Source of the DNA: Escarpia spicata
Taxonomy: Eukaryota; Annelida; Polychaeta; Sabellida; Siboglinidae
Assembly (NCBI GenBank): GCA_963995525.1
Contig: OZ023214.1
Span: 59,104,241-59,168,240, forward strand
DNA length: 64,000 bases
Reading direction: 5' to 3'
The notes beneath the pieces are model-generated. The model was given only the letters and a program-made list of their open reading frames with translations. It had not been told where the DNA came from and did not search any database. Below are positions 94 to 64,000 of the stretch, piece by piece (position 1 is the first letter of the stretch; every line of letters starts with the position of its first letter). The translations under genes and the position numbers were made by a program.

Positions 94-217
94 GCTGTCG
101 ACTCAAACTGCTGCAGTTGCTACAACACTTTGAGCACCTAGCGAGCCCTCTGGCTCAGGCTGTACACACATTTGCCCTAGAGTTTGGAGCAACAACAATG
201 GTCAGCGAGATGATGAG
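94..217 (+). CDS. NCAPD2: NCAPD2 exon 1 of window
   Basis: Begins after acceptor ...acttgtag with two bases completing a codon and ends with two bases (AG) before donor gtatga. It encodes CRLKLLQLLQHFEHLASPLA and then a segment ending VSEMMR, a HEAT-type helix pair just upstream of the conserved REIG block. Its last 47 bp (171-217) are the exonic part of the 93-bp unit repeated about 92 times downstream. Bases 1-93 are the end of the preceding intron. Confidence 0.88.
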
Positions 218-9200: not shown

Positions 9201-12200
9201 GTAAAACATAAAGGTTTGTTACGTTTTATTGGGATCAAGTTGTGGTCAGGACGTTAGTGTTATGGCTAGTAAATAAGGCATGTCCACCCTATCTGTTATT
9301 CCGACCTGTACACTTATTTGGAATGCAATAGTATTTAGTAGGATAGAATCAGTGTATTTTATTAAAATGCAATATCCATTGGAATGTGTTTGGTAGGTGG
9401 ATGCTATCAGGTGTTTATTTGGATAAAAAACAAATACATACTACATTACTAAAATATGCTTCATGTTAGACGGTGAAACATCATCTTATGCCAATGACCA
9501 AGAATCCCCACTTGTTGGTGGAAGTCATAGAACAGGTTACATTGTAAGAGCTGTTTTACAAAACCAACAAACAAAAGAGTATGTGGTGTTTACTGTAAAT
9601 ACAATACAAACAAAAGTTGGGAAATATCCCACAATAGGTATAGAGAACATTACAGCTACACTCATCCGCATACAATACAGGTATAGAGAACATTACAGCT
9701 ACACTCATCCACATACACTACAGGTATAGAGAACATTACAGCTACACTCATCTGCGTACACTACAGGTATAGAGAACATTACAGCTACACTCATCCGCGT
9801 ACACTACAGGTATAGAGAACATTACAGCTACACTCATCCGCGTACACTACAGGTATAGAGAATATTACAGCTACACTTATCCGTGTACACTACAGGTATA
9901 AAGAACATTACAGCTACACTCATCCGCATACACTACAGGTATAGAGAAGGTTACAGCTACACTCATCCGCGTACACTACAGGTATAGAGAACATTACAGC
10001 TACACTCATCCGCGTACACTACAGGTATAAAGAACATTACAGCTACACTCATCCGCATACACTACAGGTATAGAGAACATTACAGCTACACTTATCCGCA
10101 TACACTACAGGTATAGAGACCATTACAGCTACACTTATCCGCATACACTACAGGTATAGAGACCATTACAGCTACACTCATCTGCATACACTACAAGTGT
10201 AGAGAACATTACAGCTACACTCATCCGCATACACTACAGGTGTAGAGAACACTACAGCTACACTCATCCGCATACACTACAGGTATAGAGACCATTACAG
10301 CTACACTCATCTGCATACACTACAGGTGTAGAGAACATTACAGCTACACTCATCCGCATACACTACAGGTGTAGAGAACATTACAGCTACACTCATCTGC
10401 ATACACTACAGGTGTAGAGAACATTACAGCTACACTCATCTGCATACACCACAGGTGTAGAGAACGTTACAGCTACACTCATCTGCATACACTATAGGTA
10501 TAGAGACCATTACAGCTACATTCATCCGCATACACTACAGGTGTAGAGAACATTACAGCTACACTCATCTGCATACACCACAGGTATAGAGAACATTACA
10601 GCTACACTCATCTGCATACACTATAGCTTCTCTTACTGTTTGTCCAATCAGCAGAAAACATTGTGATACAAAGACATCCATTCTATCTGACTGTGTCTTC
10701 ATTGTGCAGAGAGATTGGTTCCATAGACGCGCAGGACTTGGCCCGAGATACATCGGGCACTCGGGCCTACTCTGTCTTCTTGATGGAGCTCGCAGAACGC
10801 ATCCCGGCTCTCATGCTGCCAAACATGTGTGTGTTGGCTGCTCTACTCGATGAGGAGGTAACTATAGATCACTGCCAACATGTGTGCTAGCTACACTCTT
10901 GGATGAGGAACAGAACAGAACAGAACAGAAGTGGATTTATTTATCCAGACTGTACATCCAATAATAATATGACAAATTATAATATAAAAAGGTGTACAAT
11001 GAGGATGATGGAGACTCCCACTAAGACTAGAAAAGAAGTCGCTTCCGTGGCAGCCACACAGTGTATAATTATAGTTCAGTTTCTGTTGAAAGAAAAAAAA
11101 CATGTCTATTATGTAAGACATAAGCAGTAAATAAAATAAGATACATCGTCAGTGAAAAATCCAAGATAGATTATTTTATTATAAGATGTGTGTTCGTAGA
11201 ATGTGGTGAGGTAAGCAGGTAAAAGTATGTTATGGTGTTTGGGTGTGGGTGACATCATTGTGGTTGATTGCGTGTATACATGCAGGCATAACAGTTAATG
11301 TTTGTGCACGTGTTGTAGTTATGAATGAAATGGTTCTTAGCGTAGTTTAAAAAACCATGTAAACTCTGTGTGTACAGTTTAGCTGACACACTAAGGGAAG
11401 TGTTGTTAATTGTGTTTGGTAAACAGTATTTAAGACAATTGTACCTAAATGTGAATTTTTTGTTGGTTGCATGTATTGTGACCATGAATCATGGTATTTG
11501 TAGCTATTTTCCAACTTAGAAGATGAGCACGTAATTTGTTATGTATAAATTTATAGTAAACTTTAATTCTTGAAGGGCTAAAATATCATTTACTTTTAGT
11601 AAGTTTAATTTTTTGAATAACGGTTCAGTGTGAGCATAAAAATGACTCAAAGTTATTATGCGAATAGCGCTTTTCTGAAGTTGATTATTTCTTTGAGAGT
11701 GGTACCCCCATGCTGTTAAACAGTAAGTTATGTGTGGTACTAATAATGTACCATACAATATTCTTTTTATTCTCATTGGCAGAATTTGTTTAAGTCTATT
11801 TAGTATACCGATTATTCTGGAACATTTGTTTTATACATTTTCAGAGTGTTTTCACCAGTTTAGATGTGTATCCAAAGTTAATCCCAGGAAATTAACACTG
11901 TCAACTTTTGTAATTATACTATTATTGATTTTAGGAATAGGTGTGTTAAATGTTTTTTTTGGTGTGTGGAAAACCATGAATTTAGATTTAGTTACGTTAA
12001 GGGAATGTTTATTTCTTTCTAGCCATTCATTAATTTTGTGGAGTTTTTCATGAATCAATGTTTCAGCATCATCAGTGTGTGAGATTGTGAAATTGCTCAT
12101 TGTACTCAACAAAGTAGTGTCGTCTGCATAGGATATAAAATTGAACATTTGGCTCGCTTGAGAAAAGTCATTAATATAAATGATAAACTTATCTTAGGTG

Positions 12201-54200: not shown

Positions 54201-57200
54201 TTGAAATTAACTATAATGAAACAATATATATTACATTTTCTGATACCCTGTAAATATACTCTAAACAATTAATGACATGACATGAATTGCATCTTGTTAC
54301 AGTCTATGATTCAATATGTCAGCCATATTATGCTAATTAGGTCATGAAATATGCAAATTAGGTCAACGAAAATGCAAAAAATGAATTCCTCGTATGAAAA
54401 TACCTGTATATGCTAATTTTGAGGTAATTACCTCAATTAATTACTTATCTGTTGTGAAAAAAAAGGTAAAATAGGGGTACACCCTGGAAATACTGTGACC
54501 CTATTCTTTCTGTGTTATTTTTCATGTTCACCGTTCCAACGAAAACCCCTGGGGTAGTAACATTTCCAACTTAATAACTTTGTCAGTAGTTGTCCGATTT
54601 TCATGAAATAAAAAACATTTTATTCACTGCTCCTCGCCTCATCATCTGCGCGTTGCTAGGTTTATGAAGAGAAAGAGAGTCACGGAATAAGGGTGGAAAA
54701 TGGCAATGCCCTTTAATTACATGTAGTCAATAGTAATGTAAATGGTAAAGACAGACAATGGGCATTGCCGTCAACCTAGATAACAAAAGGCAATTCCCCT
54801 TACAAACGTAGATGAGTCGTACATATCTGTCGATGGGGAATGCCAATAATTAACTATCTAAGCGGAATAAATGTGGGGCCCAGAAACCACCCAAACAACC
54901 CCACACAAAGCGCAGCAGAACCCAAAAACAAAAGTGTGTTCCTGGGCCTGGCTCAGCCAATCATGCATAAAGCAGACTTTGCCTCCTGTGAGCAGTTCGG
55001 GCCATTCTCGCATTAAAACCTCAAACGTCACTTTTGGAGCAAGTGAGGGCAAAAGATGAGAATGTTGCACGAATGCAGCAACCCCAACTCAGACTCACAG
55101 GGATAGCCATTGAAAATATGGGTGCATAGCAAAGATAACTTATTTGCTACGTTCGCCCTGCTACACAGTGAAAGGACCTTAGGGATAGGATGAACAAACA
55201 AATCTATGCCCTAACTTCCGACCCAAAGCTGAAAAGCAAGAAACGTAGTTCTCCTCACCTCCCTAGTACCACCTTCAAGTGCTAAATGTGCCTAGAATTG
55301 CACACATATATCTACTAAAATATGAACACATACATATCAAATGTATGTCAGGGAGCCGCGGCTAAGGGGTGACCGGCTACGTGCATCTACTCCCGGCCAA
55401 AAGCTGAAGAGCTCAGCATGCACCAGGGCCCCCCAACCTTGGCCCTCCATGAACAACAAATGGTGTATACATATTGTGAATACGTATGTCTATGACTATT
55501 ACCTATCAACTAATAGATAAGCAGAACATACATGAATGCATAGTAGTCGGAATATCGCCAATTGTGATAAATTGACCCAACAAATCACCAGCTAGTGAGC
55601 TTGGTCGAGATTGTGGTAAGGTAGACACCAGAGTCTCTGATGTAATCCCAATGTTAACCTAGCTAATTGTCAATGTTATACAGAAATGAACCAGATAATC
55701 ATGAAAAAGATACATTGGAATAAAGTTTCCCAAGTCCATGGTTTGAGATATATCAAAGTCCCATATATCTTTAAAAAGTTTCAAAAGAAGTAATCCGGAT
55801 ATATTTTTTGAATGCCAAGGATTTCCAACGGCCCATCCTCTGGATTTGGGAGTTGGAATATCCTTGAGCTGAAGCGTATGTTGCTGCCCCGATGCGGAAA
55901 CTGTGAGATTTTATATTTTGATTATGGAGAGATGACCACGCTAACGAGAAAGATAGCCAAGAATTCAGCTGATGAGGGGTGATTGGTGACATATCTGGGT
56001 CACAGAATAGTGGGCCTGAAGCATGACCCCTTTGAGAGATGTACTCAGATAAAGCCGCCACTGGGCAGTACCTAATCCGTGAGCGTGGAATTGGGATGGA
56101 AATGTGTGATCAAAATTGGTGTTTTGCTTGTTGAAAAACTATCACTAGGGTGTCCGAAAGAATTGATACCTGGGATATGTTTGTTATTCTGAGATTTAGT
56201 GACTTCACCGATGCGAAGGAAACCATGAAACATTAGCAGGTAGATAGCTCGAACTAGGCAAGCGTAATAAGGTGCCTGAGGCATGTGTCCTGAAGAATCA
56301 TAAAGTGCATGTAGAATAGGTAAGGTAATCGGGGGCCTAGTATCAAATTTTGACAACTGTTTGTGAGCCCCTAGAAGTATGTCTGATTAAAAAATTACCA
56401 GTGGGATCTGGGAACTGGAATAATTTGTGAAAAAATGCAATTGCTGACATACGAGAAGTGACTGAGGCTGGTGACAATCCCGTACTGAGGAGATGGGCAA
56501 TAAAATTACCAATTAAGGGAACAGAGGCAGGAAACCAAGATTCTCCTGGAAAAGTAGTTACAGCGAAGTCGTGCAACTGGGTTACCGCTTGTGAATATAT
56601 CCTACGTGGTGGAAGGGGCCAAAGATGCTGCAATGAAGCCACCTGCAGTGTTCACCAGGGAAGATAGTCTGTTGGTAAGCAGTCCGGCTGGTGGTTGAGC
56701 CAAGGAGCCTCCTTGTGTGCAGAATCGTTCTTGTCTAGGCCCGAACTGGGTCGTTCCTGTCATTTGTTGGAGAGTGCTGGCCAGCATAGCTTGAAAGTCT
56801 GTGTCCTGGCCCCCATTAGCAGATGTCCCTGGCTGTTGCATAGGTGCAGGGGTGAACGTCTCGGTAGTTGGCATCATCCTGTCAAAATGTGGCAGTGGTG
56901 TCGCTGTCGAAACTGAGGGGGGACGGTTGTCGTTGCCGCGAGTCTCAGTCAGATGTGCTTGCGCTTCCCGCAATTGTCGCTGCAGATCAAGAATGGTGGT
57001 GCGCAACAAGGCAAGATCAGTGTCACAGTCCGAGCTGTCCGACGAGTCGTCTGCCAGTCTCGCAGGCATCCGAGTTGGCCTTGTGGAGTGTCTGCTTGCA
57101 GGTGGAGGCCCGCCCTTCCTCCCATGTTTGACCTTAGGCATTGCTGAAAAGGGAAAACACAGCAGGGCAGTTTTCCGCGCATATGGGTTAACATGTTTCC

Positions 57201-60200
57201 TGAATAGAGAAAGGCATAATGCTGTGATGCCGGCCTATTGGCAGGTAATATATCCTTGAAACCAGGCCGCAATCGCCTAAAAAAAATTAATTCGCAAAGT
57301 GAATCCGGTTATTAAGATCTGCTGGTAGGTATGTGTTGATGACAGCGCACCTACAAAAGTGACCTTAAAATCACATTAACATTTGTAGGTCCTACTTAGG
57401 TGTAACCTGACCGCAATTAACACACTCCAATATGTGTTACACAGCAAAACCTGTTCGCATAGCACTGAACAATATGGGTGGAAGTAAACACAAGCCCAAC
57501 AATACCGATGTGGTACACAACCTTGCCTGCTCCAAAGGACTGCGAGAAGAGCGCCACGGTCGCTTGCGGATGTTTATCGGCAAAAACAAATCGCCAAGCG
57601 CCAATGTCGTTCGGCTGTTGTATATGCTAACAAAAATCAAGAGAAAATGCCAGCGCGAAATGTAATAAACAACAGAAAACGGGCAGCAGAGAGCAAACAA
57701 ACTTTCTCTGTGACAGGAATTTAGACTGAGTTTCCCCAGTTGAGATACTGGGCAGTGATTGGCTACTTATTAGGATATAGGCTCTCTGCGACCCCCTCTG
57801 TTGTATTCCCCAAGGGATAGCTGTATCCAGCTTAGTACAGAGGCAACATCAATTGTGACATTGTCCAGATGTGTCTGGCCAATGTTTATGTCTCAGTGCT
57901 GTGAGTAAAATGTATTTAATTCATGCTGGATTAAACACTTATTTACTTTAGAAGAAGAAGCTCCTTACATGCATAACAAAACATGTTTAGGTAATGCAGT
58001 TTTTATTTTTCATGTGGTAATGCTACTTTCAGGGCTGAGGTTGAGATAGTGTGCAGTAACATAGACATGTTCTTTCAGGGTTGAGGTTGAGATAGTGTGC
58101 AGTAACATAGACGTGTTCTTTCAGGGCTGAGGTTGAAATCGTACGCAGTAACATAGATGTGTTCTTTCAGGGCTGAGGTTGAAATCGTGCGCAGTAACAT
58201 AGATGTGTTCTTTCAGGGCTGAGGTTGAAATCGTACGCAGTAACATAGACGTGTTCTTTCAGGGCTGAGGTTGAGATAGTGTGCAGTAACATAGATGTGT
58301 TCTTTCAGGGCTGAGGTTGAGATCATTTGAGGTAACATAGGCGTGTTCTTTCAGGGCTGAGGTTGAGATGGTGTGCAGTAACATAGACGTGTTCTTTCAG
58401 GGCTGAGGTTGAGATAGTGTGCAATAACATAGGCGTGTTCTTTTAGGGCTGAGGTTGAAATCGTGCGCAGTAACATAAACGTGTTCTTTCAGGGCTGAGG
58501 TTGGGATAGTGTGCAGTAACATAGGCGTGTTCTTTCAGGGCTGAGGTTGAGATAATGTGCAGTAACATAGACGTGTTCTTTCAGGGCTGAGGTTGAGATA
58601 GTGTGCAGTAACATAGATGTGTTCTTTCAGGGCTGAGGTTGAAATCGTGCGCAGTAACATAGACGTGTTCTTTCAGGGCTGAGGTTGAGATAGTGTGCAG
58701 TAACATAGACGTGTTCTTTCAGGGCTGAAGTTGAGATCATGTGCAGTAACATAGATGTGTTCTTTCAGGGCTGAGGTTGAGATAGTGTGCAGTAACATAG
58801 ATGTGTTCTTTCAGGGCTGAGGTTGAAATCGTGCGCAGTAACATAGACGTGCTGGTCAAGGAAGGTTTGGGGCCACGGGCGGAGCTGGACTACGGCCTGG
58901 CTGCTGACACGTGCACAGTCCTACTGAAGCTGGCCGGCAAACATAAGGTACTTTGTCGCTTCTTAGATTATATTGCATTATTTCTACACTTTACCTTCTG
59001 ATACGACACTTATAGTTAGACTGACTGAAGATTGAAATGGATAGATTTATTATTGACAAACATCTAGAAAGAGAATTGTAGATACTTTTTGTAAATATTG
59101 AAACTAGAGCTAGATGATATCATGTGCATGCCTTTGTCACTGAGGGAATACTTATTATGTGTGGCAATTTTCTGCATGTTTGGTTACAATCACAACCACA
59201 TCGCAAATAGTAGGAAGACCCACATTGACGACCTGAATGTCGCTGTCTGTTACAGGCCAAGGCGGGCTCCACACTTAAGCCATACAAGTTCCCACAGCAA
59301 CACGAGATCTTTGAGCGACTGTCACTTCTCATTACAACAGGTAACGTCACTTGGGGGACACTAATCAACAGGTAACCTTAGTCGGGGGACACTAATCAAC
59401 AGGTAACAGGGATGACAATTTCGGTTTTTATACTGCTTCAAAGATCACTTTTGTGAATCGTGTAAATCCGGGGAGAAAAAAATGAATGTTGGGGGTAGGG
59501 CATATACAATCCTGGACAATTCACTGACGATCTATCTGCGGATTGAGTTAACCATCTATCCCCCGAGTGTCGCCACGTATTAATGACGCTGCCTGGCGAT
59601 TAGAGACAGAACCGAACCCGTGAATCTGCGAAGTAAAACCCTTAGTTCTGTCGGCTGTTCGCTTCAGCGCTTTCGAAGTGCGCGCACAAAAGCAGTGGAC
59701 CAATTGGAAACGACGATGTATTTTGTGGAGATGTCGATCATTTTCGAACACAATGGGTAATCGACGATTTGTTTGTACGGCAAGACAAATGTTGCGTGAA
59801 GGACATTGACAGAAGTGTCAAGAATAAGTGGAATTGGGCGTGGCTGGAGACACTATGTTGGATATATTCATCAGTAAATTATCAGCACCAGGGTGCATAC
59901 AAAATGTACTCCATCCTTCTTGCCGAGGAATGAAAGATGAAGGAGGAAAAGAAAACTAAGCTGAACATGTCAAAGACAAAGGCAGCCACCAAGTACAAAG
60001 CTAAGGAAGCAGTTGAGCTGGCAACGAAGAAAGCTAGAATGGCCCATCAACGGGCTGTTTTGACATAGCTAGCCAAGGAGAAAGCTGCCCGTCAGCCAAC
60101 TCTTGTTAAGCCGAGAAATTTTTTTACCGGGTAGTGCTATGACAATGTGTGCGTGAGTCCATGTGCTTTTTTTTATATTGGAAATGTTAAGATTTTCTAT

Positions 60201-63200
60201 TTAATATTGCTCAAAATACACCATATGTCGTCTAAAATTAAAAAATATCTCTGAGGAGTCCCCCCAATTAGATGAGACAGTTCTCTTGGGCTGAAATGTG
60301 GGCCACAGCAAAATTTCCGGTGACACTAATCAACAGACTAGCTCAGTCAGAGGACACTAAACAAAAGGTAACCTCAGTCAGGGGACACTAATCAACAGGT
60401 AACCTCAGTGGGGGGCACTACTAGACAGGTGACCTCAGTCGGGGGACACTAATCAACAGGTAATGTCATTCGGGGACACTAATCAATATATAATGTCACC
60501 AGGAACATTAATCAACATGTAATGTCACTCGGGAACACTAATCAATAGGTAATGTCATTCGGGGGGGGGGGGGCACTAATCATCAGGTCACCTCAGTTGG
60601 ACAAATGTCTCCTACAGACAACTTTCTGGTTTGTTTGAAGGTTTCATTTTACCCAGTTAAACTTGTGTTTCAGTTCTAGATTGCAGTGTTGGCTTGAGCT
60701 GAAGCATTGATCTGAAACAGCAACTTTATTGTAAAATATAATTCATTTTAACAGTGCAACTGTCCTTTGAGTGTCCTGTTGCACAGAATAATCTTAAAAA
60801 GGCAGTTTGTATGGAGCGCAGTGGCTAGAGCATCGAACTCTCAATCGAGAGAACCTGGGTTCAAATCCTGTGATGCCGTGCCAACCTTAGGCAAGTCCAT
60901 TCACTCTATGTTGCTCCAGTTCACTCAGCTGTATGAATGAGTACCTGTCTATAGACAGTAGTGTATATTTATATACAATTAGTCTGCACAGTAACTGCAG
61001 TGTGGTTGAATGCTTCCCAGAGAAGTCGAGATGGTGTTCGGTTGAACAGGTCTGCCAGGGAGTAAAGTGTAAAGCGCTTTGAGCAATCCTGACAAGTAAG
61101 CTGTAGGAACTTACCTATTTTTACTTTTATTAAAGGTGACCATTATTTTTTCCTCTAATGTTAAAAAAGGGATATTTCTAAATAGCCTCTCCTCCTTGTG
61201 TCTTTACGGTCACTGCTATGTGCCACCTGAGCACCTGAGTAGAGGTGACAGAGAGAGCTGCCTGTGGTTGACAGGTGTGGTGAGACTGGACCAGGCGCAG
61301 TGGATCCCAATGGCTGAGCAGGCCGTGTGTGTCATCTACCGACTGGCGGAACACCCAGACTGCATCTGTACACACATCATCAAACATGTCGCTGAGGCCG
61401 TCATGAACTACCGCCAACAGGGGGAGCCACCAGAGGCAACACCGTCAACTCCCGAGAAAGGTAATTGCTGCAGTTTATCTTCGCAAATAATTTGCATTCC
61501 ATCTCTGGTTAGAATGGTTTTTGTCGTGCGATAACTATAATGTAGACATTGCACACACTCACACAAACACACACACACACGCATGCACGCACACAAACAG
61601 ATGCACTCACGCACACTTGTAGCCAGCCTAGATTGAAACAGAAACTTGTCATGTAGGCCAGTCAGTCTGGTGTGATCAACATTGTCCACCTCTTTGTACC
61701 TACTTGTGTCTGTCTGCCAGGCCCAGAGAGTCGGCCACTGCCTGAGTCCGCCAGTCATCCAGTGTCAAGCCAAGAGTTCTGCTGCCCGTCTGGCATGTTG
61801 ACGCGTCTGTTGTCACTGGCAGGTCACGTTGCCCTGCGTCAACTTGTCCACCTCGACGTGTCCATATTTGGTGAGATGAAACGACGTCACCAACTACAGG
61901 AGGACAGCAGCAAGAAGAAGACACCCTCCAGCGCCCGCAAGACACCCAGGGTGAGGGGGGGTTAGTGTTTAACACCCCTAGGGTGAGTGGGGGGGCTTAG
62001 TTACTGACCTTGCAGGGTGAGGTGGGCCAGGCAAGTCTAGTTGTTGTAGAGTGACTGGGGCCTGTGAGTGTAGTTGTTGTTGTAGAGCAAGAGGGGTGGG
62101 GTGAGTGTAGTTGTGGTTGTTGTAAAGTGAGGGGGGGTGGGTGAGTGTTGTTGTTGTAGAGTAATGTGGCAGAGGGTGAGTGTAGTTGTTGTAGAGTGAG
62201 GGGGCAGACTGAGTGTGGTCGTTGTTGTAGGGTGAGGGGGCAGGGTAAGTGTAGTTTGTGTTGTAGAGCGAGGGGGGTGGGGTGAATTTTGTTGTTGTAC
62301 AGGGAGGAGGCAGACTGAGTAGTTGTTGTGTAGCGAGGGGGCACGAGAGTAGTTTTTGTAGTGTGAGGGAGGCAGGGTGTGTGTAGTTGTTGTAGAGCTA
62401 GGAGGCGGGGTGAGTGTAGTTGTAGTAGTTGTAGAGTGAGGGGGCGGGATGAGTGTAGTTGTTGTAGAGCGAGGGGGCGGGTGAGTGTTGTTGTAGAGTA
62501 ATGTGGCAGAAGGCGAGTGTAGTTGTTGTAGAGTAAGGGGGTGGGGTGAGTGTAGTTGTGGTTGTTGTAGAGTGAGGGGATGGGGATGCGGCAAGTGTAG
62601 TTGTGGTTGTTGAAGAGTGAGGGGGCGGGGTGAGAGTTGTTGTAGAGTAATGGGGCAGATGGCGAGTATAGTTGAGTTGTAGAATGAGGGAGCAGACTAA
62701 GTGTAGTTTGTGTTGTAGAACGATGGGGGATGGGATGAGTGGTGTTGTTGTAGAGTGAGGGGGCAGACTGACTAGTTGTTGTATTATAAGGGGGCAGGTG
62801 AATGTAGTTGTTGTAGGGCGAGAGGGTAGGTGAGTGTAGTTTGTGTTGTAGAGCGAGGGGGGTGGGGTGAATTTTGTTGTACAGGGAGGAGGCAGACTGA
62901 GTAGTTGTATAGCGAGGGGGCAGGAGAGTAGTTGTTGTTGTAGTGTGAGGGAGGCAGGGTGTGTGTACTTGTTGTAGAGCTGGGGGGTGGGATGAGTGTA
63001 TTTGTTGTTGTAGAGCTAGGGGGCGGGGTGAGTGTAGTTGTAGAGTGAGGGAGCGGGTGAGTGTTGTTGTTGTAGAGTAATGTGCCAGAGGGCGAGTGTA
63101 GTTCTTGTAGAGCAAGAGGGGTGGGGTGAGTGTAGTTGTGGTTGTTGTAGAGTGAGGGGATGGGGATGCGGCCAGTGTAGTTGTGGTTGTTGAAGAGTGA

Positions 63201-63677
63201 GGGGGCAGGGTGAGTGTTGTTGTAGAGTAATGGGACAAATGGCGAGTGTAGTTGAGTTGTAGAATGAGGGAGCAGACTGAGTGTAGTTTGTGTTGTAGAG
63301 CGATGGGGGATGGGGTGAGTAGTGTTATAGAGTGAGGGGGCAGACTGAGTAGTTGTTGTATGATAAGGGGGCAGGTGAGTGTAGTTGTTGTAGGGCGAGA
63401 GGGCGGTGTGAGTATAGTTGTTGTAGAGTGGGGTGAGTGTTGTTGTAGAGTGATGGGGGCAGGGTGAGTAGTTGTGGTTGTTGTAGAGCAAGAGGGTGGG
63501 GTGTGTGTAGTTGTTGTAGAATGATGGGGGCAGGATGAGTGTAGTTGTTGTTGTGGTTGTTATAGAGTGAGGGGGGCATGGCGAGAGTGGAGGAGGACCT
63601 GGGAATGACCGGAGCAGTGGCGGAGGATGCGGAGGCTGAGTTCATCCGGCGAGTGACAGAGGAACAACTCGTCACAG
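94..63677 (+). CDS. NCAPD2: Condensin I subunit D2 (CAP-D2), 17 internal exons of a spliced gene
   Basis: CAP-D2 is the HEAT-repeat subunit of condensin I; with SMC2, SMC4, CAP-H and CAP-G it compacts mitotic chromosomes. Joining the 17 exons gives 2,403 bp, exactly 801 codons, with matching phases at all 16 introns. The product follows the middle of animal CAP-D2 in order, with hallmark blocks REIGS..DLARD.SGT, TRDQFLDRLE, DVNAFVRSK.LQIW, RKNAIQLVTALLSTNPF, VLVQYLK, GVRQMLALVWSKEP and LTRLLSLAGHVALRQLVHL. Human CAP-D2 is about 1,400 residues, so both termini lie outside. Every donor is GT and every acceptor AG. Introns are dominated by tandem arrays, many built from this gene's own splice junctions. 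Identification rests on remembered family sequence, not a database search. Confidence 0.93.
171..8725 (+). repeat. 93-bp minisatellite made of the exon 1 3' end, its 5' splice site and intron (~92 copies)
   Basis: Unit starts tttgccctagagtttg, runs through gagatgatgag|gtatgag and ends ggcctaatca. Spacing of successive units is exactly 93 bp (171, 264, 357, 450, 543...). The first 47 bp of the unit are exon 1 coding sequence, the rest is intron. Each unit keeps the junction gatgag|gtatga. The unit is 31 codons, but intron sequence supplies an in-frame TAA (ATA TGG GSC TAA), so reading through beyond the first donor terminates. Units are very similar, with block-wise variants. Confidence 0.97.
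8726..9636. other. Intron 1 spacer without a gene
   Basis: AT-rich sequence between two arrays. It opens with two copies of a roughly 35-bp segment (cctaattatttttcatgtacc, 8732-8782), holds the MITE-like element at 8785-9333, and ends in unique sequence. The short reading frames here have no recognisable protein similarity. Confidence 0.6.
8785..9333. mobile_element. MITE-like element, 549 bp, with inverted ends and possible TA duplication
   Basis: Left end TACTATTGCATTCCAAATAA recurs inverted at the right end (rc of 9311-9333). If the outer TA is a duplicated target, the TIR is CTATTGCATTCCAAATAAG, as in Tc1/mariner-type non-autonomous elements. The interior holds short related motifs (ccaccctatatg, ccaccttaatta) and no transposase. 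Confidence 0.55.
9637..10625 (+). repeat. 43-bp minisatellite in intron 1 (~23 copies)
   Basis: Unit ggtatagagaacattacagc followed by tacactcatccgcatacacta. Starts are spaced 43 bp (9637, 9680). The unit contains cag|gtatag, which resembles fused splice sites, but no NCAPD2 exon sequence is recognisable. The array ends 84 bp upstream of exon 2. Confidence 0.93.
10710..10857 (+). CDS. NCAPD2: NCAPD2 exon 2 of window
   Basis: Acceptor cattgtgcag; the first base completes the Arg codon split by intron 1, then 49 codons read EIGSIDAQDLARDTSGTRAY ... ELAERIPALM ... CVLAALLDEE up to donor gtaact in phase 0. The REIG / SGT / ELAERVPA pattern is a strong CAP-D2 signature. The last ~33 bp form the exonic part of the array that resumes at 16975. 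Confidence 0.93.
10826..10911 (+). repeat. First units of the exon 2 junction array, cut by an insertion
   Basis: Exon 2 ends gatgaggag|gtaactatag; a second unit starts at once (tgccaacatgtgtgctagct) and reaches ggatgagga at 10911. There the array stops and a block ending in pentamer (acaga)n begins. The array resumes at 16975 with ggtaactatag, so 10912-16974 looks inserted between two halves of one unit. Confidence 0.8.
10912..14400 (-). mobile_element. Non-LTR retrotransposon (CR1/Jockey-like), degenerate, minus strand
   Basis: Read on the minus strand from about 14375 down: endonuclease start (FSILTLNIQSINSKF, VICLQECWI), interrupted at ~13905 by a nested element, then GGLITYIDKRF, EGLIINVTGGG and IAISNIYRPPS (13312-13575), a linker (12818-13171), an RT segment with NAFNTFFTNIG and NSTGSDFIS (12106-12522), the RT catalytic block YADDTTLLS (11852-12148) and a C-terminal part with GTLLVPHITYCLTAWG (11516-11776). 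The 3' end is a TTCTG pentamer run at 10912-10935. Several frameshifts and gaps make it non-functional. Clade assignment is inferred from motif style. Confidence 0.85.
13574..13905 (-). mobile_element. Nested 5'-truncated LINE 3' end
   Basis: The minus strand encodes GTRAFFFAAPTLWNMLPLSV followed by FRRHLKTYLYN, the extreme C-terminus typical of Jockey/CR1-like RT proteins, then a 3' UTR ending in a TTATTATTA tail. It lies between LPGYACIAF and GGLITYIDKRF of the surrounding LINE, so it inserted into that element's endonuclease region. Its 3' tail matches a second copy at 18270-18392. Confidence 0.75.
14401..15112. other. Intron 2 sequence without a recognised feature
   Basis: AT-rich, no long frame and no tandem structure. 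Possibly the 5' region of the neighbouring LINE or older insert sequence, since it lies inside the block that splits the exon 2 array. Confidence 0.4.
15113..15356 (+). mobile_element. Single LTR-like copy of the TGTGG...CCACA family, diverged
   Basis: Starts tgtggggaacacctttgctg and ends near tgtcccgcataaat. The internal block tacaaacatacatctgactt then gtgttatcagcaaacaagcc is shared with the LTRs at 23160 and, inverted, at 15372. A short direct repeat (atacatacacatatacaata) lies before each end (15089, 15347). Confidence 0.5.
15372..16413 (-). mobile_element. Small LTR-like element with two 209-bp direct terminal repeats
   Basis: 15372-15580 and 16205-16413 are near-identical direct repeats of equal length. 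On the minus strand each begins TGTGGTTGGTTCCCCTCACC and ends TGTCCCACA. The 624-bp interior has no pol gene. On the minus strand a conserved ttccaccacctgtg precedes the downstream repeat, matching ttccacctgcg at the same place in the 23160 element. It resembles a TRIM (miniature LTR retrotransposon). No clear target duplication or primer-binding site was found. Confidence 0.6.
16414..16974. other. Intron 2 spacer with a dispersed 24-bp repeat
   Basis: Contains three copies of atgccccacctaagtagaaa (16523, 16712, 16816; the last has cgtaag). No coding sequence. The segment ends exactly where the exon 2 junction array resumes. Confidence 0.5.
16975..18085 (+). repeat. 53-63-bp minisatellite spanning the exon 2 end and 5' splice site (~20 copies)
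   Basis: Unit gtgttagctacactcctgga, then tgaggag|gtaactatag, then atcactgccaac. The part before the bar is a diverged copy of exon 2 (gtgttggctgctctactcga / tgaggag). Unit length varies because the (TG)n tract expands, most at 17950-18040. Many units are multiples of three and stay open in the exon 2 frame (CVLATLLDEEVTIDHCQRV), giving spurious frames. Confidence 0.95.
18200..18392 (+). mobile_element. LINE 3' tail fragment (plus strand)
   Basis: The segment ttgtcttgatgcgcctctga ... tttccgaggatttagggaca ending in ttattattattgtt matches, inverted, the 3' tail of the nested LINE at 13574-13690. A 5'-truncated copy; the left edge is uncertain. Confidence 0.6.
18440..19640 (+). repeat. 44-bp minisatellite abutting the exon 3 acceptor (~27 copies)
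   Basis: Unit gagcatgaccactgctgtta then ccacttacacctgcgtgttgtgtt; starts at 18451 and 18495 give a 44-bp period. The last units become 46-47 bp with tgatgtgtgttgtg. The array runs into the exon 3 acceptor: tgtgttgcatgcag|cc resembles the unit's tgtgttgagcatgacc with small indels, so it may derive from that acceptor. Confidence 0.92.
19661..19783 (+). CDS. NCAPD2: NCAPD2 exon 3 of window
   Basis: Acceptor ttgcatgcag, 41 codons, donor gtgcgt; phase 0 at both ends. Encodes PYTMRNCVLSIMGEMVVHLL and then EKATRDQFLDRLE. MRN..L..MGE and TRDQFLD are strong CAP-D2 signatures. Confidence 0.95.
20128..21565 (+). repeat. 36-bp minisatellite in intron 3 (~40 copies)
   Basis: Unit gtagtttccacttgaccact then ggtactcagtagaggt. 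Because 36 is a multiple of three, the minus strand stays open for 445 codons as a 12-residue repeat (ETTPLLSTSGQV); it is not a gene. Variants (cagtag / caatag, ggtacc / gatact) run in blocks. No exon similarity seen. Confidence 0.94.
21603..21740 (-). mobile_element. SINE 3' fragment, minus strand
   Basis: Inverted and truncated match to the 3' body of the SINE at 60808-61135: shared blocks include ctcaaagcgctttacacttt, the cagacctgttca segment and ctcgacttctctgggaagca. Confidence 0.65.
21741..22880. other. Intron 3 sequence without a recognised feature
   Basis: Mostly unique sequence. Two related short segments, one with accgactagtga (22406) and one with gccgactagtga (22469), hint at an old duplication. 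No conserved coding sequence was seen. Confidence 0.4.
22882..22995 (+). repeat. 38-bp x3 tandem duplication spanning the exon 4 acceptor
   Basis: catgacgtcaatgcctttgt recurs at 22882, 22920 and 22958, a strict 38-bp period. Each repeat carries tgtttaa(a/g)|gacca, the acceptor and start of exon 4. Only the third copy continues into gcgtagcaag and the rest of the exon. Confidence 0.92.
22949..23023 (+). CDS. NCAPD2: NCAPD2 exon 4 of window
   Basis: 25 codons, phase 0 at both ends: DHIHDVNAFVRSKTLQIW then MTIVNEK, donor gtttgt. The HDVN.FVRS..LQ motif is a CAP-D2 signature. The acceptor tgtttaag is weak in pyrimidines and is the last of three tandem copies. It links exon 3 (FLDRLE) to exon 5 without a gap relative to the family. 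Confidence 0.92.
23160..24100 (+). mobile_element. Small LTR-like element with two 211-bp direct terminal repeats
   Basis: 23160-23370 and 23890-24100 are near-identical direct repeats that start TGTGGTTGTTTTCCCCCACC and end CGTGCCACA. The 519-bp interior lacks any pol gene and ends gtggggtcttccacctgcg before the second repeat. Same family as 15113-15356 and 15372-16413. No convincing flanking target duplication. Confidence 0.65.
24101..26013. other. Intron 4 sequence without a recognised gene
   Basis: AT-rich unique sequence. Two short blocks about tgtcc / acaagt (24175-24235 and 25710-25770) and inverted cagggcttga ends (24249 and 25780-25789) hint at an old hAT-like element, but the flanks show no target duplication. 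No conserved coding sequence. Confidence 0.4.
26014..26148 (+). CDS. NCAPD2: NCAPD2 exon 5 of window
   Basis: Acceptor ctgtgatcag, 45 codons in phase 0, donor gtaatg. Encodes LLPLPRQHRLLELVIGRL and RKNAIQLVTALLSTNPFAAK, a HEAT repeat with the family's KNAIQL...L..NPF block. Its last 12-15 bp are included in the three 71-bp tandem units that follow. Confidence 0.95.
26139..26353 (+). repeat. 71-bp x3 tandem duplication spanning the exon 5 end and 5' splice site
   Basis: attcgctgcgaag|gtaatg at the exon is followed by attcgctgcaaag|gtaatg (26207) and attcgatgcaaag|gtaatg (26278). Spacing is 71 bp. Each copy keeps the donor and about 12 bp of exon. Confidence 0.93.
26354..26738. other. Intron 5 spacer
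   Basis: No gene seen. A possible diverged SINE trace (gctgaatccagtctttagag, 26418) is too weak to call. Confidence 0.4.
26739..27147 (+). repeat. 27-bp minisatellite in intron 5 (~15 copies)
   Basis: Unit taggcctggacagttctcaa then gccataa. A multiple of three, so both strands stay open over it, giving spurious frames with 9-residue repeats. No relation to an exon is visible. Confidence 0.92.
27373..27463 (+). CDS. NCAPD2: NCAPD2 exon 6 of window
   Basis: Acceptor atttgccag; 30 codons plus one base, donor gtgagt. Encodes LPLEELRASYETEKAKLDEM and MPAPPDTPLK, the charged linker that follows the NPF block in CAP-D2 (weakly conserved). The phase matches exon 7. The last ~32 bp are the exonic part of the 41-bp array. 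Confidence 0.87.
27432..27820 (+). repeat. 41-bp minisatellite spanning the exon 6 end and 5' splice site, left part (~9 copies)
   Basis: Unit gatgccagctccacctgaca, then cgccactcaaag|gtgagtcat. About 32 bp of each unit is exon 6 and the rest is donor plus intron. The array is cut at 27821 by an inserted element and continues at 31929. Confidence 0.95.
28125..30100 (+). repeat. 43-bp minisatellite inside the hAT-like element (~46 copies)
   Basis: Unit aggtccttgcacccccgctt then caaggtctccctgcacatggacg. Variants (acaccc / acccc, gacgag / gacaag / gactag) form blocks. Overlapping frames rich in SLHPRFKVSLHMD arise from the repeat and are not genes. Confidence 0.95.
30101..31069. other. Element interior without a gene
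   Basis: AT-rich sequence with a (TA)n stretch at 30350-30368 and no conserved coding sequence. It leads into the 3' UTR of the LINE fragment. Confidence 0.4.
31070..31497 (-). pseudogene. CR1/L2-like LINE reverse transcriptase, C-terminal fragment
   Basis: The minus strand from 31497 encodes DIDMLERVQRRATKMIPNLR, then RRLRGDHIEVFKILNGYE, then FSQRTVNEWNRLSPDCVGAS and a terminal NKIDTYLKKAGYM. These are C-terminal motifs of CR1/L2-type RT proteins. The 5' part is missing, a normal 5' truncation. Confidence 0.85.
31929..32262 (+). repeat. 41-bp exon 6 junction array, right part (~8 copies)
   Basis: Continues the unit gatgccagctccacctgaca ... ctcaaag|gtgagtcat, with variants (aagtgag, aaggtaag, aatgtgag, aaggtgcg). 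It ends with a truncated unit at 32262, 250 bp before exon 7. Confidence 0.94.
32516..32660 (+). CDS. NCAPD2: NCAPD2 exon 7 of window
   Basis: Acceptor cctctctttag; two bases complete the codon split by intron 6, then 47 codons plus AG, donor gtgaag. Encodes PAVLEREERWTGVKERLMKA and an acidic stretch TDESETITDTDDVP. This aligns with the family's DPEEEW..ML.EL segment and the acidic region after it. Confidence 0.88.
32670..34735 (+). repeat. Pyrimidine-rich tandem repeat (14/17/28-bp subunits) in intron 7
   Basis: Mixed units of ctcctgtcaatctcagt and ctcatagcagt, commonly combined as a 28-bp unit. It begins about 10 bp after the exon 7 donor, so it may come from that junction, but no exon sequence is recognisable. 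About 2 kb, with irregular unit order. Confidence 0.9.
34736..35021. other. End of intron 7
   Basis: Unique AT-rich sequence ending in the acceptor tctctccatgcag. No other feature seen. Confidence 0.5.
35022..35227 (+). CDS. NCAPD2: NCAPD2 exon 8 of window
   Basis: The first base completes the codon from exon 7; 68 codons plus one base follow, donor gtgcgc. Encodes IRRRLAKLLGEGKYPEAVIL, an acidic run KEEEEDND and VQQRLREIFLG. This fits the family's IYQLLAKASYKKAI ... LLNILGLIFKG segment. The frame stays open past the donor, so the exon end is set by phase agreement with exon 9. Confidence 0.88.
35626..38680 (+). repeat. 41-bp minisatellite ending in the exon 9 acceptor (~75 copies)
   Basis: Unit ggtacagtcactgtgacata then ctgtgtctgtgtgtctgtata. 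Each unit carries a pyrimidine/TG tract and AG (gtctgtatag|gtacag). The last one is the real acceptor, ctgtgtctgtgtgtag|gaggg. Some units are shortened to 28 bp. Minus-strand frames rich in YTDTQTQYVTVAVPIQTH are products of the repeat. Confidence 0.94.
38681..38811 (+). CDS. NCAPD2: NCAPD2 exon 9 of window
   Basis: Two bases complete the Gly codon, then 43 codons to donor gtaact. Encodes GNEETELEKAVALASSGSSQ and NELTKQQVLVQYLK. The NEL.KQ..LVQYL block is a CAP-D2 signature. Confidence 0.94.
39111..43097. mobile_element. hAT-like non-autonomous element with an internal 58-bp satellite
   Basis: Left end CAGACCTAGGTTCAATTC, right end (rc) CAGACCTGGGTTCAATTC. Flanking octamers ggtatata (39103-39110) and agtatgta (43098-43105) match at 6 of 8 positions, as for an aged 8-bp target duplication. 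Ends are rich in (aattcaattcc)n. There is no transposase; 3.2 kb of the 4.0 kb is satellite. Confidence 0.72.
39375..42606 (+). repeat. 58/56-bp minisatellite inside the hAT-like element (~55 copies)
   Basis: Unit ctcaagtcagacaacctgca, ccagtacagtatggtaccac, cttgaaggattacattga. A two-base shorter form (gtcaacaacc) alternates with the 58-bp form in higher-order patterns. Units are nearly identical, which suggests recent homogenisation. Confidence 0.95.
43172..43428 (+). CDS. NCAPD2: NCAPD2 exon 10 of window
   Basis: Acceptor tgtgttttgag; 85 codons plus AG, donor gtgagt. Encodes DSTHFASEIEKAVPVVCQLL, then VQEAINLFVSSFEFGV, GVRQMLALVWSKEP and VNAYKHLYLKSEG. GVR.ML.L.WSKEP followed by NAY..LYL is among the most conserved CAP-D2 blocks. 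The last ~25 bp are the exonic part of a 38-bp array. Confidence 0.96.
43409..43700 (+). repeat. 38-bp minisatellite spanning the exon 10 end and 5' splice site (~7-8 copies)
   Basis: Unit gagggcatggctagttctag|gtgagtggtcagaagtca. The exon reads tctgagggcatggctagttc then tag. Most copies are exact and one lacks the agaagtca part. All keep the donor gtga(g/a)t. Confidence 0.96.
43800..46140 (-). mobile_element. RTE-type LINE, degenerate, minus strand
   Basis: Minus-strand blocks in order from 46140: endonuclease end (GLGVRNERGDTLVEWA, NEIDYILTN), a linker (45267-45852, including EFYTELYNSQ), RT core (YREYNIPLCITFIDYEKAFD, then QTQAILTSLQEQGIEDV, 44548-44913) and a C-terminal part (CVLPAMTYGVETWALT, RSMLNITYREKKTNIW, RGRPVRWW; 43900-44184), ending AEAFAQPRDTTAAQ near 43800. 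Frameshifts are numerous, and about 240 bp at 45060-45300 interrupt the RT. Non-functional. Confidence 0.85.
46141..46596. other. End of intron 10
   Basis: No gene or tandem structure seen. A small repeat cgtactgtacgctta / tgtacgctta occurs around 46323 and 46381. Confidence 0.45.
46597..46681 (+). CDS. NCAPD2: NCAPD2 exon 11 of window
   Basis: Acceptor tcgttacag; one base completes the Arg codon, 28 codons follow, donor gtacgt in phase 0. Encodes AGALSVANNLLQLAVGATLG and ELTSLEQL, matching the family's short helix pair after NAY..LYL. Confidence 0.88.
46709..50113 (+). mobile_element. hAT transposon, 3,405 bp, with perfect 8-bp target duplication
   Basis: Flanked on both sides by cttgtgtt (46701-46708 and 50114-50121). 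Ends: left CAGGGTTCGCACGGATCC, right (rc) CAGGGTTCATACAGATACC; both carry subterminal cccttgaaaacccttgaa repeats. It inserted into one unit of the exon 11 junction array. It carries a broken transposase gene. Confidence 0.95.
47130..49711 (+). pseudogene. hAT transposase with BED zinc finger, broken
   Basis: Start MAPEKGKCKFKDEWLAIEE, then after a frameshift near 47195 a BED-type finger (CRFCAKF ... SLDSHVKSATHKNN). An apparent 304-bp intron (donor 47379, acceptor end 47682) keeps phase. Next come a catalytic-core segment with VLLFDESYNS, an RWLENVP block, and a C-terminal hAT dimerisation region (LSHGQASIERGFSVNQQMEV). Breaks: frameshifts at A7 (48017-48023), T6 (48095-48100), near 48475 and near 49130, plus an in-frame TAA at 48574-48576. 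The two homopolymer shifts could be sequencing errors. Confidence 0.88.
50114..50310 (+). repeat. 42-bp minisatellite spanning the exon 11 5' splice site (~4-5 copies)
   Basis: Unit cttgtgttgtattagtgacc, then tg|gtacgtcacttcacacaccc. The exon 11 junction itself (caactg|gtacgtcacttcac) is the first member at 46679; the hAT element sits in its tail. Repeats share three to six exonic bases plus the donor. Confidence 0.9.
50599..50678 (+). repeat. 28-bp x3 tandem duplication spanning the exon 12 acceptor
   Basis: ttggtgtcacatgttccag|ttatgtgag (50599), ttggtgtcacatgtcccag|atgtgtcgc (50627) and ttggtgttccag|gtgtgtgag (50655; the last lacks a few bases). The period is 28 bp. The third copy holds the acceptor used by exon 12. 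Confidence 0.82.
50667..50803 (+). CDS. NCAPD2: NCAPD2 exon 12 of window
   Basis: 45 codons plus AC, donor gtgagt. Encodes VCELVKSGDLDHGVIQVLWE and SRGALLLLGMAA. This matches the family's EILCEFV..DEL...V.QLLWE ... SSVMLLGMMA segment. The split Thr codon is completed by exon 13. Confidence 0.94.
50804..51198. other. Start of intron 12, unique sequence
   Basis: No gene or repeat recognised before the acceptor array begins at 51199. Confidence 0.5.
51192..52574 (+). repeat. 46-bp minisatellite spanning the exon 13 acceptor, left part (~30 copies)
   Basis: Unit ttctttcag|ggctgaggtt, gagatagtgtgcagtaacat, agacgtg. About 37 bp of each unit is the start of exon 13. The first copy has tgttgttgtccag in place of ttctttcag. 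Each unit read as coding meets TGA at the next unit (CAG GGC TGA), so only the last acceptor, at 58815, gives an open exon. Confidence 0.96.
52806..53262. repeat. Inverted-repeat arms and a perfect hairpin within the TIR element
   Basis: A diverged inverted pair: 52810-52890 and 53105-53200 share cgcacttgtaaacc / ggtttacaagtgcg and gtcgcc..gtcgg-type cores. Just beyond lies a perfect hairpin: gcggacaacc, 10-base loop, ggttgtccgc (53230-53259). It may be the core of a nested MITE. Confidence 0.55.
53595..54440. repeat. Diverged ~150-175-bp tandem repeat (4-5 copies)
   Basis: The motif (at)atgtccgccatttta, then a-t-rich gctaattac-type sequence, then gcaatgaaacagtttatgct, recurs near 53823, 53990, 54141 and 54318, with a weaker copy upstream. 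Copies differ strongly, so it is older than the junction arrays. Confidence 0.6.
54441..55770. other. TIR element interior without a gene
   Basis: Short inverted motifs ggcaatgccc (54701), gggcattgcc (54760), ggcaattcccc and ggggaatgcc (54790-54843) may mark an end of the recombinase element. No conserved coding sequence. Confidence 0.4.
55771..57141 (-). pseudogene. Tyrosine recombinase of a DIRS/Crypton-like element, broken
   Basis: From 57141 on the minus strand: a charged N-terminal, gag-like segment (MPKVKHGRKGG; acidic DDSSDSSDCD; heptad-like LLRTTILDLQRQLREAQ), then after a frameshift near 56615 a SAM-like core-binding domain (56343-56642), FHGFLRIGEVT with the first catalytic Arg (56072-56356), and HSFRIGAATYASAQGYSNSQ ... 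GRWKS...YIR with HxxR, Trp and Tyr (55771-56061). At least three frameshifts separate these parts. No reverse transcriptase is seen between them. Confidence 0.8.
57142..58012. other. Right flank of the TIR element
   Basis: No gene. Contains an inverted pair acctacaaa / tttgtaggt at 57349-57391. The open frame at 57432-57665 (77 codons) has no recognisable similarity. Confidence 0.4.
58026..58851 (+). repeat. 46-bp exon 13 acceptor array, right part (~18 copies)
   Basis: Continues the unit of the left part up to the true exon. Copies here include the exon-like variant gaaatcgtgcgcag, which was not seen in the left part (there gagatagtgtgcag or gagatcatgcgcag), so copies nearer the exon resemble it more. 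Confidence 0.96.
58815..58947 (+). CDS. NCAPD2: NCAPD2 exon 13 of window
   Basis: Acceptor tgttctttcag, the last of about 48; one base completes the Thr codon and 44 codons follow to donor gtactt. Encodes AEVEIVRSNIDVLVKEGL and YGLAADTCTVLLKLAGKHK, matching the family's KPEIV.SNLD.LV..GL segment. Confidence 0.93.
59256..59340 (+). CDS. NCAPD2: NCAPD2 exon 14 of window
   Basis: Acceptor ctgttacag; 28 codons plus one base, donor gtaacg. Encodes AKAGSTLKPYKFPQQHEIFE then RLSLLITT. The P...P.EH.LFERL pattern is a CAP-D2 signature. Confidence 0.92.
59331..59406 (+). repeat. 31-bp minisatellite spanning the exon 14 5' splice site, left part
   Basis: Exon end acaacag|gtaacgtcac is followed by tcaacag|gtaaccttag and tcaacag|gtaacaggg. 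Unit caacag|gtaacctcag then tcgggggacactaat, 31 bp. Cut at about 59407 by an insert. Confidence 0.88.
59407..60315. mobile_element. Insert of about 0.9 kb in the exon 14 array, class unclear
   Basis: Begins near cagggatgacaatttcgg and ends near gcaaaatttccggtg, an imperfect inverted match. It contains a lysine-rich coding remnant (KTKLNMSKTKAATKYKAKE, 59940-60068) of unknown origin. No clean target duplication. The array continues on the far side. Confidence 0.5.
60316..60600 (+). repeat. 31-bp exon 14 junction array, right part (~8-9 copies)
   Basis: Units such as atcaacag|gtaacctcagtc then aggggacacta, increasingly diverged (gtaatgtcattc, atatataatgtc). A 12-G run lies at 60560-60571. Several units keep the donor-like cag|gta. 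Confidence 0.88.
60808..61135 (+). mobile_element. tRNA-derived SINE
   Basis: A tRNA-like head with A-box-like tggctagagcatc (60822) and B-box-like ggttcaaatcc (60858), then a body shared with the inverted fragment at 21603-21740 (cagagaagtcgagatggt, gtaaagcgctttgagcaa) and a pyrimidine/T-rich tail. Sits 140 bp upstream of exon 15. Confidence 0.8.
61275..61460 (+). CDS. NCAPD2: NCAPD2 exon 15 of window
   Basis: Acceptor tggttgacag; two bases complete the Gly codon, 61 codons plus G follow, donor gtaatt. Encodes VVRLDQAQWIPMAEQAVCVI then YRLAEHPDCICTHIIKHVAE. Matches the family's P.P.WIPF.EVAV..IY.LAE.PE.IC..I segment. Confidence 0.95.
61549..61605 (+). repeat. (CA)n-rich microsatellite in intron 15
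   Basis: Imperfect cacacaaacacacacacaca run with gcatgcacgc interruptions. No junction relation. Confidence 0.9.
61721..61950 (+). CDS. NCAPD2: NCAPD2 exon 16 of window
   Basis: Acceptor ctgtctgccag; two bases complete the Gly codon, 76 codons follow, donor gtgagg in phase 0. Encodes a variable linker, then MLTRLLSLAGHVALRQLVHL (signature) and a basic tail KKKTPSSARKTPR. The donor after CCCAGG is chosen because phase 0 agrees with exon 17. Confidence 0.92.
61951..63565 (+). repeat. ~33-bp minisatellite filling the whole of intron 16; the unit holds both splice-site types
   Basis: Unit gtgagtgtagttgttgtag|agtgagggggcagg. The array starts at the exon 16 donor (cagg|gtgagg) and ends at the exon 17 acceptor (gttatag|agtgagggg), so each unit resembles a mini-intron plus a 14-bp mini-exon. 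Unit lengths vary with (gtt)n and g-runs. Long minus-strand frames rich in LALQQLHSP / YNNYTH are repeat products. Confidence 0.93.
63566..63677 (+). CDS. NCAPD2: NCAPD2 exon 17 of window
   Basis: Acceptor gttgttatag; 37 codons plus G, donor gtacag. Encodes SEGGMARVEEDLGMTGAVAE then DAEAEFIRRVTEEQLVT. Matches the family's EEELG..GA.A.D.EAE.I..I.E.ELL segment. The exact acceptor is inferred, because the array offers many similar ones; this is the last and keeps the frame. Confidence 0.9.
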
Positions 63678-63689
63678 GTACAGACCGAC

Positions 63690-64000
63690 TCTAGACACAG
63701 ACTCACACGCCATATAGATACAGACTCACACGCCGTATACACACAGACTCACATGTCGTATAGACACAGACTCACACGCCGTATAGCCACAGACTCACAT
63801 GCCGTATAGACACAGACTCACACGCCGTATAGACACAGACTCACACGCCGTATAGCCACAGACTCACATGCCGTATAGACACAGACTCACACGTCGTATA
63901 GACACAGACTCACACGCCGTATAGCCACAGACTCACATGCCGTATAGACACAGACTCACACGCCGTATAGACACAGACTCACACGCCGTATAGCCACAGA
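63690..64000 (+). repeat. 23-bp minisatellite starting at the exon 17 donor (13+ copies, runs off the window)
   Basis: Unit gacacagactcacacgccgt then ata, with gcc / aca variants alternating in a higher-order pattern. It begins within about 15 bp of the donor (cacag|gtacagacc), and its cacagac core resembles the junction, so a junction origin is possible but not shown. Confidence 0.9.

Follow-up and report, generated by a model that had tools for sequence, protein, structure and literature searches.

The NCAPD2 locus

The DNA analysed here, referred to as the window, is a stretch of 64,000 nt of Escarpia spicata (assembly GCA_963995525.1, contig OZ023214.1, positions 59,104,241-59,168,240 of the forward strand, or C11:59104241-59168240 in the assembly of 1.06 Gb and 1097 contigs). 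It contains 17 of the at least 30 exons of NCAPD2, which encodes condensin complex subunit 1. These exons were located by tblastn with a human NCAPD2 sequence as query, and were then refined with the splice sites. All exons and arrays described below are on the forward strand and their positions are those of the window. Exon 1 of the window (94..217, real donor at 217/218) is exon 7 of the gene, and it is followed by exons 2 (10710..10857), 3 (19661..19783), 4 (22949..23023), 5 (26014..26148), 6 (27373..27463), 7 (32516..32660), 8 (35022..35227), 9 (38681..38811), 10 (43172..43428), 11 (46597..46681), 12 (50667..50803), 13 (58815..58947), 14 (59256..59340), 15 (61275..61460), 16 (61721..61950) and 17 (63566..63677). 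The start of exon 17 was set by comparison with Lamellibrachia satsuma, upon which an earlier candidate start at 63593 was dropped. The introns within the window are of the GT...AG type, and the phases of the 17 exons are consistent.

When flanking sequence is included the gene model comprises 30 exons spread over ~90 kb and encodes 1354 aa without a stop; a likely final exon was seen by eye further downstream. The proteins closest to the NCAPD2 of the window are those of vestimentiferan tubeworms. The best matches of the spliced protein include condensin complex subunit 1 of L. satsuma (listed identities of 97% and 81%, covering 29% and 73% of the query, respectively), and a Ridgeia piscesae protein matched at 85% over 44% of the query. 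A POM121-type nucleoporin gene adjoins NCAPD2 on the minus strand (C11:59054241-59094240). It was mapped with an L. satsuma protein and has ten introns, the last of which is poorly modelled. Open reading frames that look retroelement-like by eye are present in the NCAPD2 flanks.

Tandem arrays in the window

Tandem Repeats Finder reported 69 rows for the window and 47% of the window consists of arrays; tandem arrays make up half of the 90-kb NCAPD2 gene. The range of unit lengths given in the initial annotation for the junction arrays, 28-93 bp, was reproduced by this program. The largest copy number is found at the donor of exon 1, where a 93-bp unit composed of ~49 exon and 44 intron bases is present in 92 copies (169..8729), with the GT being intact in 90 of the 91 extra copies. 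At exon 2 the first, real copy of the donor unit (10829..10899) is separated from the others by inserted sequence, and the remainder of the array (16976..18102; 57-bp unit) contains 19 extra copies, all 19 with an intact GT. The donor arrays of exons 5 and 10 are uninterrupted: the former (26136..26352) has 3.1 copies of a 71-bp unit with 13 exon bases, and the latter (43403..43698) eight copies of a 38-bp unit with 26 exon and 12 intron bases. The exon 6 donor array, with a 41-bp unit of 34 exon and 7 intron bases, is split into two parts (27430..27821 and 31931..32262). The donor of exon 16 is duplicated at ~35 bp with 12 exon bases. Acceptors are affected as well. The exon 4 array (22879..22978) has 2.6 copies of a 38-bp unit with ~26 exon bases. 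The 46-bp unit at exon 13, with ~36 exon bases, occurs in two parts (51199..52581 and 58026..58851), the second of which ends in the real acceptor, and AG is intact in all 45 extra copies of the two parts together. Finally, degenerate units of ~35 bp with exon bases precede exon 17 (62034..63551). The most upstream copy there (62016-62035) encodes EVGQA, in agreement with L. satsuma, and EGGMA is encoded by the copy that adjoins the exon (63566-63600); the coding edge of exon 17 may have been rewritten by its array, or another copy may be used.

Short exon pieces are contained in three further arrays: those at the donor of exon 11 (remainder at 50114..50302; 41-bp unit, 3 exon bases), the acceptor of exon 12 (50599..50666; 28-bp unit, ~14 diverged exon bases) and the donor of exon 14 (59335..59407, resuming after an interruption at 60322..60557; 31-bp unit, 6 exon bases, range 6-11). 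Other arrays approach an exon without entering it. As stated in the initial annotation, three of them abut a splice site: one with a 44-bp unit (18445..19638) stops 22 bases upstream of exon 3, one (32669..34726) begins 8 bases downstream of exon 7, and one with a 23-bp unit (63692..64000) begins 14 bases downstream of exon 17 and extends past the window. The array at exon 9 (35626..38678; 41-bp unit) stops 2 bases upstream of that exon and contains no exon sequence. Within its unit AG|GT comes after a pyrimidine-rich stretch, with AG present in 76 of 76 copies, and the array resembles a row of dual-purpose splice sites. Four intronic arrays lie away from junctions: 9636..10623 (43-bp unit, 23 copies), 20128..21562 (36-bp unit), 26741..27145 (27-bp unit) and 39387..42606 (58-bp unit).

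The arrays of introns 2, 6, 11, 12 and 14 are split by foreign-looking sequence. The insert in the exon 2 donor array (10900..16975) has reverse-strand open frames that look retroelement-like by eye; the two reverse-strand frames tested gave no Pfam match. The one in the exon 6 donor array (27822..31930) has ends that by eye resemble inverted repeats, and contains a 43-bp minisatellite of its own (28121-30099). Further inserts separate the first from the remaining exon 11 donor copies (46712..50113) and interrupt the exon 14 donor array (59411..60321). In the insert within the exon 13 acceptor array (52582..58025) one reverse-strand frame showed weak similarity to an integrase in Pfam that fell short of the curated cut-off.

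Splice junctions repeated within arrays

To score junctions individually, 45 exon and 12 intron bases of each were compared with the rest of the adjoining intron, and the result was set against 100 shuffles that kept base composition only. For 9 of the 33 boundaries in the window a junction-crossing match beat every shuffle, namely the donors of exons 1, 2, 5, 6, 10 and 16 and the acceptors of exons 4, 13 and 17. The margins were narrow for donor 16 (15 versus 12) and acceptor 17 (24 versus 21), both of which are of low complexity. Donors 11 and 14 and acceptor 12 have in-register copies that did not beat the shuffles. At acceptor 9 both this test and the 2-base gap indicated that the array merely abuts the exon. 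The shuffles were not beaten at the other 20 boundaries either, and no match crossing the exon 9 donor was found in the 58-bp array of its intron. The initial annotation had placed at least 13 splice sites, in 11 of 16 introns, within arrays of this kind. Nine of these sites are strongly supported and 12 hold some exon sequence, but three fail against the shuffles and acceptor 9 does not qualify; accordingly, a spanning array is present in 10 of the 16 introns (8 by the strict test), and in 11 if acceptor 9 is counted.

The same test was applied to the flanks, for which twenty 10-kb stretches around the window were used. Of the 26 junctions with introns outside the window, 24 being wholly outside it, seven scored above all shuffles; the two edge junctions, acceptor 1 and donor 17, were negative. 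The donor of the exon preceding the window has a 36-bp unit in 41 copies, and the downstream flank contains arrays at an acceptor (65 bp), a donor (35 bp), an acceptor (76 bp), a donor (38 bp) and two more acceptors (88 and 37 bp). Together, 16 of the 58 junctions of NCAPD2 are positive and 42 negative by the strict test (donor 17, tested twice, is counted once), while ~0.6 such hits are expected by chance at the shuffle level used. Donors and acceptors are both affected, since three donors and four acceptors outside the window add to the six and three within it. Tandem units that combine an exon edge with its splice site and part of the intron next to it, the hallmark of the "mirages" of amphioxus, are found at 9 of 33 junctions within the window and at 7 of the 26 on or outside its borders.

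Arrays are concentrated at exon edges

Placement relative to chance was analysed for 19 arrays picked by hand from the 69 rows, all of them well developed and none located in an inserted element; arrays and inserted sequence were collapsed. Eleven of the 19, three of them short cases, span a junction versus 2.16 expected, and 11 was reached in none of 200,000 placements; 15 of the 19 lie on or within 25 bp of a junction versus 3.42 expected. With the strict set of 8 spanning arrays out of 19, and inserted elements removed, p was 0.0005. A list that involved no selection, consisting of the 49 arrays with a period of at least 20 in the whole gene, contained 13 that span a junction, versus 2.70 expected (p < 1e-5), or 5.05 when elements were removed (p 0.0008); six more were near a junction only. 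The excess of arrays at junctions, implied in the initial annotation, was thus found with the hand-picked, the strict and the unselected list.

These figures bear directly on the possibility that there is no preference for junctions at all, and that the gene was noticed in a minisatellite-rich genome for having many of them. Tandem repeats are indeed abundant: arrays occupy 38% of a region of 264 kb and 31% of it outside the gene, and they average 37% in ten random 4-kb stretches, a sample too small for a firm genome average. Moreover, in POM121 a spanning copy was observed at only 1 of 20 junctions, an acceptor. We nevertheless regard this explanation as unlikely in view of the placement results, which include the unselected list (13 of 49 versus 2.7-5.1), and of the recurrence of the pattern in flanks beyond the window of the initial annotation. 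The preference for exon edges holds for NCAPD2. The phenomenon extends beyond this gene with a strongly differing frequency, its generality resting on one further gene, POM121. As a separate observation, three of the ten random stretches are wholly satellite, with units of 69, 325 and 326 bp, and the last two of these, nearly equal in unit length, are on different contigs.

Retention of the spare splice sites

The splice dinucleotides were analysed in 15 arrays, the short or degenerate ones of exons 4, 12, 16 and 17 and one flanking acceptor array of 2.5 copies being omitted. GT or AG is intact in 429 of the 438 extra copies (265 of 268 in nine arrays of the window and 164 of 170 in six new arrays). 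The spare splice sites are not being lost. Change at the splice columns was lower than at random adjacent columns for all 15 arrays (p 0.01), with p 0.04 for the nine arrays of the window and p 0.09 for the six new ones. When single arrays were left out of the window test p ranged from 0.002 to 0.09. Fully invariant splice pairs numbered 10 versus 7.2 expected (p 0.06 for the 15 arrays, and p 0.72 for the six new arrays alone). When the same dinucleotide at other places of the units served as the reference, none of 20,000 draws was as low as the splice dinucleotide; alternatives are few in this comparison, and the exon 14 array largely drives it. For the seven arrays scored, the consensus match of the donor copies is close to that of the real donor.

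One reading of these data, a form of the selection for redundant sites raised in the initial annotation, is that the extra copies are maintained because redundant or decoy sites would aid the splicing of long introns, for example through binding of U1 along the intron. The intact copies, the reduced change on one of the two measures and the quality of the donor copies are in line with this idea and favour it weakly. Against it stand the values of the other measure and of the six new arrays, as well as the loss of significance in the window test without the exon 9 array (p 0.09 and 0.12). In addition, such arrays are lacking at 42 of the 58 junctions of NCAPD2 and at 19 of the 20 of POM121. Selection is therefore, in our opinion, an improbable explanation of the arrays.

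Origin of the arrays

The consensus unit differs at each junction. A search of the genome (1.06 Gb) covered two of the units, those of exons 1 and 13, and recovered each of them at its home locus only; the search skips very common words, and its counts are lower bounds. The view that it is junctions that are repeated, rather than a shared element, is thereby upheld. Introner-like elements would show one sequence at many places, which was not seen for either of these two units. The exon parts of the units encode NCAPD2 residues that are conserved with L. satsuma and Ridgeia, which indicates that the exon is the source of the array. Compared with the coding copy, the last two copies of the exon 1 array have 4 and 3 differences, the second copy has 3 and most inner copies have 5-8; in the exon 13 array two copies are identical to the coding copy. 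Such patterns of divergence are typical of amplification by exchange.

Two specific causes proposed in the initial annotation were not supported. Slippage exactly at AG|GT disagrees with the position of the junction, which can be anywhere within the unit and looks uniform (12 junctions, exon shares entered by hand, KS p 0.82). R-loops received no clear support: the GC skew of the 11 exon-carrying units leans to G, yet it is positive in six, negative in four and zero in one. Neither breaks at the splice site itself nor a simple R-loop model agree well with the seemingly uniform junction position and the two signs of skew. The ends of the exon 5 duplication share a match of 4 bases, which was seen by eye and is the sole such repeat noticed.

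We favour, with a probability of roughly 60%, the interpretation that the arrays are tandem copies made in place of the gene's own junctions, i.e. mirages, arising by local duplication, amplified by unequal exchange and tolerated by splicing. Initially, a short segment across the exon edge would be duplicated, presumably by slippage or break repair. The duplicated unit would then be amplified by unequal exchange, and splicing would tolerate the resulting array by selecting the copy that adjoins the exon, as judged from the reading frame. Exon edges may be local hot spots of duplication, arrays beside junctions being found too, and the general abundance of tandem repeats in this genome may feed the junction arrays. 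Several points speak against this interpretation: the duplication step by itself gives no reason for an excess at junctions, most junctions of NCAPD2 (strict test) and all but one of POM121 are free of such arrays, a match between duplication ends was noticed at exon 5 alone, and on one measure the splice dinucleotides are slightly less variable than other columns (p 0.01, see above), unlike what pure neutrality would give. Moreover, tandem repeats at human exon-intron borders can alter splicing (PMC2812944), so that tolerance is not assured.

The arrays might alternatively mark introns that were born by tandem duplication of an exon piece carrying AGGT. This is a known route of intron gain, with a potato case that crosses an intron-exon border (PMC4974935), and human repeats at exon-intron borders form new introns (PMC2812944). 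However, for most arrays the junction test gave a match at just one of the two intron ends, and in L. satsuma and Ridgeia the protein is continuous at the corresponding joins, which makes this origin very unlikely. An assembly artefact is still less probable: long, near-identical arrays are easily mis-sized, but here the copies differ from each other, the arrays of five introns are split by foreign-looking sequence, and the L. satsuma gene models likewise have an array at the donor of exon 6. Insertion of a mobile intron-like element at many splice sites would account for the number of sites in one gene, but can hardly be credited with units that vary from junction to junction and resemble the exon beside them, and it is contradicted for the exon 1 and exon 13 units, which are unique in the genome.

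Comparison with known systems

Tandem copies of a gene's own junctions have a precedent, and the statement in the initial annotation that minisatellites overlapping splice sites are reported from amphioxus was correct: "mirages" have been described for Adh3, the globins BflGb6 and BflGb9, troponin C and PGBD5 (PMC3087553, PMC3902484). As in NCAPD2, exon edge, splice site and intron are repeated in tandem at donors and acceptors, the copies carry splice signals, and unit length varies, there between genes. The concerted evolution within the BflGb6 cluster, with diverged borders, also resembles what we observed. RT-PCR in amphioxus suggested that the arrays leave splicing undisturbed. The present case differs in being from an annelid instead of a cephalochordate, in affecting 16 of 58 junctions of one gene versus one or two in the amphioxus cases described there, and in having up to 92 copies versus 3 and 6 in BflGb6. 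Furthermore, AG/GT is kept in many, not all, copies in amphioxus and in 429 of 438 here. The NCAPD2 arrays fit mirages of the amphioxus type, but they occur in a different phylum and are more extensive. Among the entries that a search of open-licence papers listed, none mentions junction minisatellites for an annelid. Minisatellite arrays with monomers of 25-216 bp are known from the first intron of earthworm metallothionein genes (PMC12783039), likewise in an annelid, and spanning of splice sites is not mentioned in the portions of that report consulted.

Human minisatellite-type internal tandem repeats in genes of segmental duplications are likewise situated on exon-intron borders and have units of 30 bp on average, but they have ~4 copies, belong to recent paralogs and account for 27 intron modifications over many genes, where they alter splicing and form introns (PMC2812944). 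Intron gain in a potato RdRp gene similarly involved a duplicated segment with splice signals crossing an intron-exon border (PMC4974935); in NCAPD2 no new intron is evident, there are up to 92 copies and the predicted coding sequence continues. The dual-specific AG|GT sites of human UBC (PMC10809524) also form a tandem AG|GT array. Those sites delimit coding monomers and are used, whereas the copies described here are intronic.

Junction minisatellites have been best known as an oddity of amphioxus, and are now found at 16 of 58 junctions of a conserved annelid gene with more than 400 intact spare sites. This would make them a general route of intron growth and a natural test of how the spliceosome chooses among many equal sites. 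A tentative and rather doubtful extension is that exon edges are true duplication hot spots in this lineage, where a process linked to exon-intron structure continually produces junction arrays, that introns become reservoirs of hundreds of intact spare sites, that an array can rewrite the exon edge, as perhaps at exon 17, with the turnover of minisatellites contributing to the evolution of proteins and introns, and that the phenomenon originated separately in cephalochordates and annelids.

Arrays and gene models in L. satsuma

NCAPD2 of L. satsuma is represented by two gene models. A 16-residue repeat, which corresponds to the edge of exon 6 reading into the next copy, is found at the end of one model and at the start of the other. 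The split appears to be a misannotation due to the exon 6 donor array, and junction arrays seem to break annotation, array units of this condensin gene being read as protein repeats. The exon 6 donor unit is 48 bp in L. satsuma versus 41 bp in E. spicata; judging from the sequences, either two independent duplications or the shortening of an old unit could account for this. The L. satsuma homologue of POM121 and NCAPD2 are both listed on a contig of 253,184 bases, and the POM121-NCAPD2 neighbourhood is likely to be common to the two species.
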